This document shows positions 9,560 through 19,375 of a stretch of 40,754 nt of DNA, in pieces; the first letter of the stretch is position 1, and the number at the start of each line of letters is the position of its first letter. A program made the position numbers and the translations under genes. The notes beneath the pieces were generated by a model that saw nothing but the letters and a program-made list of their open reading frames with translations, made no database searches and was not told the DNA's origin. Source of the DNA: Beggiatoa sp. (GTDB taxonomy: Bacteria > Pseudomonadota > Gammaproteobacteria > Beggiatoales > Beggiatoaceae); the NCBI GenBank assembly GCA_003245895.1, contig QKBZ01000014.1, positions 1 to 40,754 of the forward strand, written 5' to 3'.

Positions 9560-9750
9560 GATTGCAGGGTGCTCCTATACCAGTATATGTTAAAGAGAGA
9601 ATGTTGCCCGAATGCGACAATTTATTTGATCATTTAGGCATTACACAGGCAGGTGTAATTGTAATCATGTAATAAGGTTAGCAGGGAATAAATTCAAATG
9701 ACGTGCAGCGGTTTTTATTTGCGATGCACAAAAGGCGGGGGGAGAATTTC

Positions 9751-10138
9751 AGGAGAGTGAGTCTATAAGCCGGGTTCTGTGCCAATGCCTAGGGCACTGG
9801 TAGCAGCCATTCATCTGGGATTATTGTTACCAATAACCTCTAGCGACCTACCCGGAAACGCATGCGGACCACATGATACTGATCAAAGTCAGAGAGTTTC
9901 CCTATTTGGTCTTGCTTTGGATGGGGTTTACCCTGCCACTTCTGTTGCCAAAAGCGCGGTGCGCTCTTACCGCACCATTTCACCCTTACCGCTCACCGAG
10001 GCAAACGGCGGTATATTTTCTGTGGCACTTTCCGTAGGCTCACACCTCCCAGGCGTTACCTGGCATCCCGTCCTATAAAGCCCGGACTTTCCTCTATATC
10101 GCTCAAGGCAATACAGCGACTGCTCAACCGACTCTCCT
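9751..10138 (-). ncRNA. rnpB: RNase P RNA (type A)
   Basis: Read on the minus strand, the molecule begins near 10138 (AGGAGAGTCGG). It contains the universal GAGGAAAGTCCGGGCT block at ~10079-10094, the ACAGAAAATATACCGCC block near 10010-10025 and the 3' block GAACCCGGCTTATAGAC at 9761-9777. Its 5' and 3' ends are complementary (AGGAGAGTC and GACTCACTCTCCT region, helix P1/P2). The ~388-nt length fits bacterial type A RNase P RNA, the catalytic subunit that removes 5' leaders from pre-tRNAs. An open frame on the other strand across it is accidental. Confidence 0.97.
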
Positions 10139-17729: not shown

Positions 17730-18413
17730 TTAACGACGCAACACCGCCAGCCAGCGGCTTAAATTCAGCAAACTGAGCAAAGTAGCGGCGACATAAGTAT
17801 AGGCGCAGGCGCGTAAAATTTTGCGGGCGGCGGGTAAATCTTCCGGTGATAAATAACCGCCTTCGCTCAAAATGGGTAAGGCTCGCTGGAAACTGGCATC
17901 GAATTCGACCGGCAAAGTGATGAGATGTACCACGCTAGCAGCACTTAAGCTCAGCAAACCGCCGATTAACATCATCTCGCTAGCGGCGGGTATGCGTAAA
18001 AATAAGGTGATGACAGGTAAACTTAACATCATCCCCGCGCCGATTTTTTCTAAGGTTTGCGCGTTTTTCACCATACGGGTGCGGTTTTGCAAAGGTTGAT
18101 AGCCGATTTTATCTTGCAAAGCGTGCCCGACTTCATGGGCAGCAACCACAATAGCGGTTAAGGAGCAACCTTCGTGATAGCGTTTACCTAAATACACTAC
18201 TTTAGCTTCAGGATCATAGGCATTCAGTGCGGCATGACATTCTACGGCGACATATTGCATATCCATGTGATCTAACAGATGGCGCGCCAGTTCTCCGCCC
18301 GTACCGGGAAAATCTTCGCGTGGCGAGTCATAACGCCGCAGCACGCGCTTCACCCACCACGCAGGTAAAAAGGTCAGTCCTAGCAGCAGTAAGAACAGTA
18401 ACAATAATGGCAT
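17730..18413 (-). CDS. YugP-type membrane zinc metallopeptidase
   Basis: 227 residues. An N-terminal membrane helix (~3-22) and two or three more after residue 120 flank a zinc site HEVGH (His93, Glu94, His97) within AIVVAAHEVGHALQDKIGYQPL. This matches the neutral zinc metallopeptidase family of B. subtilis YugP in length and order. It probably cleaves membrane or envelope proteins; no substrate is known. It lies upstream of uvrC on the same strand, separated by a family A repeat. Confidence 0.88.
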   Translation of the reverse strand: MPLLLLFLLLLGLTFLPAWWVKRVLRRYDSPREDFPGTGGELARHLLDHMDMQYVAVECHAALNAYDPEAKVVYLGKRYHEGCSLTAIVVAAHEVGHALQDKIGYQPLQNRTRMVKNAQTLEKIGAGMMLSLPVITLFLRIPAASEMMLIGGLLSLSAASVVHLITLPVEFDASFQRALPILSEGGYLSPEDLPAARKILRACAYTYVAATLLSLLNLSRWLAVLRR

Positions 18414-18577
18414 GTTTAAGCCCTAGTTGCGTAGCCTCGTAGTGTTTAAGTATGAAGCATTGGGGCTGTAGTTTAAAGTCTATTGCTGTTTATTCGCATT
18501 AAAAACCAATTTAATACAATGACTTATGGTTTTTGTCGGTTTGACAGACAAAATTTTGTCAAAAAGCGCTTTACAAT

Positions 18578-18596
18578 ACTAATGAGAATCATTATC
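18578..18596 (+). promoter_or_regulatory. Fur box
   Basis: ACTAATGAGAATCATTATC matches the 19-bp Fur consensus at 16 of 19 positions, with a further overlapping hexamer (CATTAT) downstream. A possible promoter (TTTGTC at 18555-18560, TACTAA at 18577-18582, 16-bp spacer) would be covered by Fur. Confidence 0.75.
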
Positions 18597-18742
18597 ATTA
18601 TCAACCAGTGGCGGGTGTTTCAGCTTGCTTCATCCTCCTCACCGACCCTGTCAGGGTTTTGTCCCGCCACTATTTCCTTTCTGCCATAGACATCTCACTT
18701 TTTTGAACTCACGATAGCCAGCAACTGTTGTGAGTTTTTTTC
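18597..18742 (+). ncRNA. Candidate Fur-repressed small RNA
   Basis: No supported gene lies between 18442 and 18781, but the plus strand shows an ordered set of RNA signals: the Fur box/promoter; an 8-bp stem GTGGCGGG (18608-18615) / CCCGCCAC (18663-18670), with an inner hairpin ACCCTG-TC-AGGGT; a C/T-rich single-stranded segment (CTTCATCCTCCTCACC, ~18628-18643) complementary to Shine-Dalgarno-like sequences; and a strong intrinsic terminator (18706-18742). The size of ~140-150 nt fits a regulatory sRNA analogous in logic to RyhB/PrrF. I do not recognise its sequence. The 5' end is inferred. Confidence 0.6.
18706..18742 (+). terminator. Intrinsic terminator of the candidate sRNA
   Basis: AACTCACGATAG and CTGTTGTGAGTT pair over about 12 positions with two G-U wobbles around a short loop, followed by a run of seven T then CTTTTTT. 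Confidence 0.8.
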
Positions 18743-18781
18743 TTTTTTCTGCATAAGGCAGGTGTGAACTAGCAATTAACC

Positions 18782-19375
18782 CTATTCTTCAAGTAATTTT
18801 GCTGAAAGTTTCCGCCATTTATTGAGTATGTCTCCGCGCTTATGAAAATCATGCTCATGCTGTAACGCACTGTAAGCCGCTATGTATCCATTTCTTAGAT
18901 CAAGAAATTGCTGACTGTCATAGCTTTGCTTAATCCATAATCGTTCTGCCTCTGTTGGCTCTTTTAAAAACGCTTCTGCTTCGTAGAGATAACTTAAATG
19001 CTCAACAGTTGAGGAATGCCAAATATCTAACTGTTCAATAGGCTCATGGAATAGAAATGGCAGCATGTACATATTACTAATCATTGTAATTTTTAATTTG
19101 TACTCCGCCTCTTTAATATGATCGGCTCTAAATTCTGCGAGTGCCCAATATAAATTAAAAATTGGTTCTCCTACATCATCAGGAAATTCAGACTCATACC
19201 ATGAATAGAAATCTAAGGCTTTGTCATTAGCACCTGCTAAAACATAATAGATAGGAACATTGTATCGTTTACCTGCTCCGTCACTAATATAGCCATGTTG
19301 TTCTTTTTCCGTTAATAAAGCGCGTCGCCCTCTATTTGCACGATCTCTATATCGCTTTTTGTCCTCTGGAGTCAT
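18782..19375 (-). CDS. Hypothetical TPR-like protein
   Basis: 197 residues, soluble. The N-terminus has RGRRALLTEKEQHGYISDGAGKRY, then LAGANDKALDFYSWYESEFPDDVGEPIFNLYWALAEFR, a helical arrangement like one or two tetratricopeptide repeats. I recall this as a widely scattered bacterial family of unknown function with a conserved ISDGAGKRY motif. SD AGGAAC lies before the ATG. The gene is downstream of the broken toxin-antitoxin locus on the same strand and ends close to the terminator of the convergent candidate sRNA. Confidence 0.8.
   Translation of the reverse strand: MTPEDKKRYRDRANRGRRALLTEKEQHGYISDGAGKRYNVPIYYVLAGANDKALDFYSWYESEFPDDVGEPIFNLYWALAEFRADHIKEAEYKLKITMISNMYMLPFLFHEPIEQLDIWHSSTVEHLSYLYEAEAFLKEPTEAERLWIKQSYDSQQFLDLRNGYIAAYSALQHEHDFHKRGDILNKWRKLSAKLLEE

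Follow-up and report, generated by a model that had tools for sequence, protein, structure and literature searches.

An intergenic stretch at 18414-18781 of the window (the whole 40,754-nucleotide stretch of Beggiatoa sp. DNA analysed here) lies between two minus-strand genes and holds a gene for a small RNA (sRNA) on the plus strand. The segment 18570-18743, which runs from promoter through terminator, is a real gene, and its sequence makes it very probably that of a Fur-repressed trans-acting sRNA. The product most likely spares iron in the manner of RyhB, while its architecture, with two anti-Shine-Dalgarno (anti-SD) sites, recalls that of NmsR in Neisseria. The full reading, in which a free-standing sRNA repressed by Fur-Fe(II) would spare iron by pairing with the ribosome-binding site (RBS) of mRNAs such as sdhC, is judged to be probable.

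When 95 related genomes were searched at the DNA level, one true homologue was found beyond the window (G018:C5:397401-397543; 80% identity, E 2.6e-30); its genome belongs to the same family but to a different genus. Some match at E <=1 is found in 81 of the 95 genomes, nearly all of them short stretches and many the Fur box. The features of the locus are as follows.

17730-18413, minus strand: flanking gene for a Pfam Zn_peptidase_2 protein.
18552-18564, plus strand: conserved upstream element ATTTTGTCAAAAA, part of the palindrome GACAAAATTTTGTC.
18570-18598, plus strand: sigma-70-like promoter, TTTACA, 17-bp spacer and TATCAT (10/12 matches; both hexamers kept in G018).
18578-18602, plus strand: two overlapping Fur boxes, by consensus match, over the spacer, the -10 and the start region.
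About 18605-18743, plus strand: predicted sRNA transcript of about 137-139 nt, its start placed from the position of the -10.
18607-18671, plus strand: hairpin 1, predicted by folding, with a closing stem of 9 pairs between the arms AGTGGCGGG (18607-18615) and CCCGCCACT (18663-18671).
18624-18644, plus strand: CU-rich seed 1, CTTGCTTCATCCTCCTCACCG, predicted to be unpaired and exposed (21/21 identical in G018), with the CU-rich core CTTCATCCTCCTCACC at 18628-18643.
18645-18657, plus strand: small inner hairpin ACCCTGTCAGGGT, from the fold and the comparison with G018.
18688-18701, plus strand: seed 2, AGACATCTCACTTT, the single-stranded linker between the hairpins (14/14 identical in G018).
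18705-18743, plus strand: intrinsic terminator, a stem of 13 pairs at 18705-18737 and a T-run, with the helix kept with changes in G018.
18782-19375, minus strand: flanking ORF of 197 aa, without Pfam match.

The first-pass annotation had placed the sRNA at 18555-18745, which begins in the upstream region; a covariance model built from the two homologues matches the window at 18605-18743, the span of the predicted transcript. The elements that it had named are all present, the Fur box of 16/19 as two overlapping 19-mers at 18578-18602, and the stem, the C/T-rich loop segment and the strong terminator at 18607-18671, 18628-18643 and 18705-18737, respectively. The sigma-70-like promoter is absent from its list. 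Its general picture of a structured, Fur-controlled, free-standing sRNA with an exposed CU segment, now seen to be conserved, stands, but its choice of TCCTCC as the sole seed is incomplete, as it had missed the equally conserved AGACAUCUCACUUU between the hairpins. The seeds carry CCUCAC and UCUCAC, in two conserved single-stranded segments rather than one TCCTCC alone. The folding energy of 18600-18745 is -37.5 kcal/mol against -27.0 +/- 3.5 for shuffled sequences (z -2.97), 2 of 200 of which fold as well. In the predicted structures from the two genomes, the mean unpaired probability is 0.77 and 0.75 for seed 1 and 0.86 and 0.77 for seed 2. Upstream of the promoter, the palindrome GACAAAATTTTGTC occupies 18547-18564, and the G018 homologue retains its TTTTGTCAAAAA; the palindrome may act as an UP element or as another operator.

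Alignment of the two sequences leaves three kept blocks, the promoter with the Fur site, the 21-nt CU segment and the 14-nt linker. The CU segment and the linker are identical at 35/35 positions, compared with 61/87 plus 19 gap columns, all outside both blocks, in the rest of the transcript; these segments were outlined after the alignment had been viewed, except for the 16-nt core named in the first-pass annotation, and the linker block was chosen afterwards, which inflates any p-value for this contrast. In the closing stem of hairpin 1, 8 of the 9 pairs are unchanged, one is changed on both sides (G-C / A-U) and none is broken, and one pair of the terminator helix is likewise changed on both sides. 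Taken together, the two helices are paired in 44/44 cells with 2/22 pairs changed on both sides, whereas slid controls are paired in 36-49%. The compensated stem of the G018 homologue provides the conservation in relatives on which the first-pass annotation had staked its proposal. Shuffles reach the observed level of covariation in 129 of 500 cases, and its weight is limited because only two sequences are compared, so that helix covariation is support, not proof, for the predicted structure.

The 19-mers at 18578-18596 and 18584-18602 each match GATAATGATAATCATTATC at 16/19 positions on the plus strand, and the second matches at 17/19 on the minus strand. The window has three matches with <=3 mismatches, where shuffled sequence would give 0.02, and an equally good Fur box occurs nowhere else in it. 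Fur boxes of the same shape recur in the Beggiatoa genome (G000), with 14 match lines at 11 places against one in a reversed control, whereas they are not enriched in G018 (4 matches against 3). Three proteins were scanned at the flanks of G000 Fur boxes; one is IucA/IucC (siderophore synthesis), one is a Peripla_BP_2 binding protein and the third is without a Pfam match. Upstream of a small uncharacterised protein of G018 there is also a Fur box, and the gene for a ferritin-domain protein follows. Similar-looking proteins of ~110 aa, without Pfam match, are encoded directly behind Fur boxes in both genomes (L158:1527-1862 and L150:1536-1862); with the ferritin-domain gene next in G018, they are possibly an uncharacterised iron protein. 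In another family member, G028, a Fur box of 17/19 stands directly ahead of a short ORF (L003:1510-1900). Genes of the Fur family number three in G000 and two in G018, counted at the family level, at which Fur, Zur and PerR are not told apart, and each genome has two Hfq genes (L143/L211 on G018:C22, and L144, L145 and L146). One of those in G018 is located some 450 bases before sdhC, and the second G018 copy has one TAA within a read-through frame.

Classic targets of Fur-controlled sRNAs include sdhC and bfr. As a usual target, sdhC was the single one named beforehand; it was ranked among gene starts that a simple script, rather than a trained gene finder, had assigned, 242 of them from the window and 310 kb of G000 and 589 from 800 kb of G018. 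Both seeds are predicted to pair over the sdhC RBS in both genomes. At the G000 site, loop pairing spans about -13 to +7 at -17.3 kcal/mol, a value that none of the 242 other starts reaches, and the linker pairs at -9.2 kcal/mol; at the G018 site, linker pairing spans about -14 to -5 at -12.0 kcal/mol, a value reached by 3 of 589 starts, and the loop pairs at -13.6 kcal/mol. When the two seeds are summed, one other start is as good or better in each genome (1/242 and 1/589), against 12 (of 242) and 13 (of 589) with the seeds reversed; the two sites are orthologous and hence not independent. Among 2000 trials with shuffled seeds, 69 equal the joint score for sdhC, and the reversed loop pairs with G000 sdhC at -17.8 as against -17.3 kcal/mol for the true loop; since these controls come moderately close, part of the sdhC signal is pyrimidine content. 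The proposed pairing of TCCTCC with ribosome-binding sites is only partly upheld: the sdhC RBS does pair with the seeds in prediction, but the best pairing relies on CCUCA(C)/UCUCAC more than on UCCUCC, and the extended complement of the CU segment is not enriched genome-wide over the reversed pattern (38 vs 32 and 58 vs 49). The bfr gene of G018, examined because of a Fur box in its neighbourhood, pairs with the linker at a level beaten or equalled by 1 of 589 starts and by 20 of 2000 shuffles; its pairing with the loop is not notable. Loop pairing is not stronger at starts than inside genes (-8.06 vs -8.29), although only 3 of 40 shuffled loops are as start-biased. The top-ranked predicted targets show no excess of genes with Fe-S/heme-like motifs (1 gene in the first 20; shift p 0.13), nor does pairing stand out at the six nqr starts in the window. 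A NarI-like top match of G018 was rejected; its G000 counterpart is weak and partial (33% identity, 70 residues). The pairing predictions give no more than suggestive support for a translation block at sdhC, and a block of iron-using genes appears the best reading.

Several of these results would also suit a Fur-controlled sRNA whose main job is other than anti-SD iron sparing, with CU segments that, for instance, bind a protein or another RNA, or repress parts of central metabolism that do not depend on iron, as in the case of NmsR. Iron-protein motifs are not enriched among predicted targets, nor are extended complements enriched in either genome, and the same two-site anatomy is described in Neisseria meningitidis, where NmsRA and NmsRB each have a UC-rich single-stranded anti-SD segment in a loop and a second one between the stem-loops, aim at TCA-cycle mRNAs including sdhC, and are sibling copies tied to the stringent response (PMC5362039). 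Control by Fur points to iron instead, and sdhC and bfr score high, which leaves such a role unlikely. It is very improbable that the unit is a cis-acting leader, an attenuator or a gene for a short peptide of 35 codons, read from an ATG at 18582 through hairpin 1. The frame is open in the window from 18582 to a TAG, and the His_leader model scores weakly, at 19.7 bits where its cut-off is 49; in G018, however, ATA replaces ATG and the frame stops after 9 codons, and the leader-peptide reading was rejected on the loss of start codon and frame. The gene neighbours also differ, a zinc peptidase and an uncharacterised ORF in the window as against an OmpA/Pal-like and a thioredoxin-like protein in G018, both encoded on the minus strand and named by eye from sequence rather than by family search. 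No plus-strand gene lies directly downstream of the sRNA in either genome, which together with the different neighbours argues against a cis leader, and with its unrelated neighbours in G018 the sRNA unit behaves as its own gene. Also in G018, a transposase-like ORF of 343 aa, so named by eye, occurs twice within L120:15214-18175, the copies looking identical and starting ~1.9 kb apart. A chance Fur box, or one serving the minus-strand gene 17730-18413, beside an unrelated hairpin and terminator is scarcely credible, for although a minus-strand promoter-like site does overlap the Fur box at 18578-18602, the unit recurs in full at another place in G018, a genome in which that gene has no homologue that the search could find, and 19 other loci of the zinc-peptidase family lack such an RNA.

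The distribution of the Fur-controlled sRNA is narrow. The covariance model (R1), built from the window and G018 sequences, finds strong matches in 2 of 42 family genomes (25 genera), at 166.8 and 145.5 bits. Each carrier has one strong match, and so no sibling copies; 14 of the 42 genomes give a match at E <=10, the next-best score being 20.1 bits. In a draw of 369 genomes of the class, six have a match at E <=0.5, G000 itself and five weak ones, the best of them at 24.1 bits (E 0.0067, G277). These searches used stricter filters, by which weak members may be missed, and the other members of the family may have lost the gene, have diverged too far or have been filtered out. The 25 weak loci from both model searches were rejected as members and called chance, having no convincing Fur box upstream; the best such box, 14/19, is within an apparent coding frame of G000. 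The core CTTCATCCTCCTCACC with <=1 mismatch occurs in 5 of the 42 genomes and is sRNA-like only in G000 and in one of two G018 matches, the remaining ones being rejected as they sit in apparent coding stretches. Homologues of the zinc peptidase are present in 20 of the 42 genomes, and across 20 of 22 such loci (two overlapping fragments omitted) the model matches at the sRNA's own locus only. A search of genome_contigs with GCTTCATCCTCCTCACCG, from which records near the window may be missing, returned 27 stretches, none above 16.6 bits in model score, and TTGCTTCATCCTCCTCACC has no match in viral_contigs. The Fur-box loci L001-L030, scanned for a downstream CU motif and T-run, gave no second candidate of this type.

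At the gathering cut-offs of Rfam 15, only the bacterial RNase P class A RNA at 9750-10135 (minus strand, 336.6 bits) passes in the window. The sRNA matches no family, RyhB included, in agreement with the earlier expectation of a sequence different from RyhB and PrrF. Membership of PrrF (RF00444) was rejected at 17.8 bits in the window and 13.6 bits in G018 against a cut-off of 90, the faint score at a permissive threshold stemming mainly from the Fur box and terminator, and that of the Betaproteobacteria toxic sRNA (RF02278) at 14.2 bits, in G018 only, against 50. The gene has three traits of the Fur-regulated iron-sparing class, namely its own promoter overlapped by Fur boxes, a free-standing unit with a terminator, and Fur-family genes in the genome. 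It resembles RyhB of enterobacteria, PrrF of Pseudomonas and NrrF of Neisseria in its Fur box at the promoter, intergenic position, terminator, Hfq in the genome and likely sdhC target, but shares with them no sequence or covariance-model match. In predicted structure it is like NmsR in having two UC-rich single-stranded segments, loop and inter-hairpin, and unlike it in being a single copy with a Fur box. FsrA of Bacillus and IsrR of Staphylococcus belong to Firmicutes and differ from it in sequence, and FsrA works with Fbp proteins, not Hfq. Both are Fur-controlled and iron-sparing, with C-rich regions proposed to pair with the RBS, although at gltAB the pairing confirmed for FsrA does not involve those regions (PMC8464778, PMC11257911). 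For BrrF / ncS63 of Burkholderia, a RyhB-like role under Fur control with iron-protein targets has been proposed; BrrF is expressed with hemP and lacks its own Fur box, and the SD is for the most part not its target (PMC5688073, PMC7377471). The present sRNA carries its own Fur box and has predicted SD pairing. A literature search found no Fur sRNA described for the host lineage. As far as Rfam and the sequence and literature searches show, the sequence family thus appears to be new, while the kind of regulator is well established.

What can be read directly is the gene anatomy, the Fur-box match, the seeds and helices kept in a second genus, and the Fur and Hfq genes. In the mechanism proposed, Fur-Fe(II) would bind and repress the sRNA promoter as long as iron is present. 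When iron is short, Fur would leave the promoter and transcription would run to the intrinsic terminator, giving an RNA of ~137 nt. Its two exposed seeds, both rich in pyrimidines, with CAUCCUCCUCACC open in hairpin 1 and CAUCUCAC between the hairpins, would base-pair, probably with the help of Hfq, with mRNAs whose ribosome-binding sites are rich in purines and whose products use iron but can be dispensed with, sdhC being an example; their translation would be blocked and iron spared. A bolder and more tentative view is that the new sRNA family, confined to part of one gammaproteobacterial family, has independently joined direct Fur control of the RyhB/NrrF type to a double anti-SD grip of the NmsR type. 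The CUCAC core of both seeds could take the same sdhC SD, so that maybe one target is bound by either seed, or two at once.

It appears that iron-sparing sRNAs have originated many times over, from sequences unrelated to one another. With its Fur control and the two CU seeds unchanged between two genera, the present RNA would be a concrete case of regulator origin and of convergence on sdhC, and the new family offers a handle on iron control in the host lineage.
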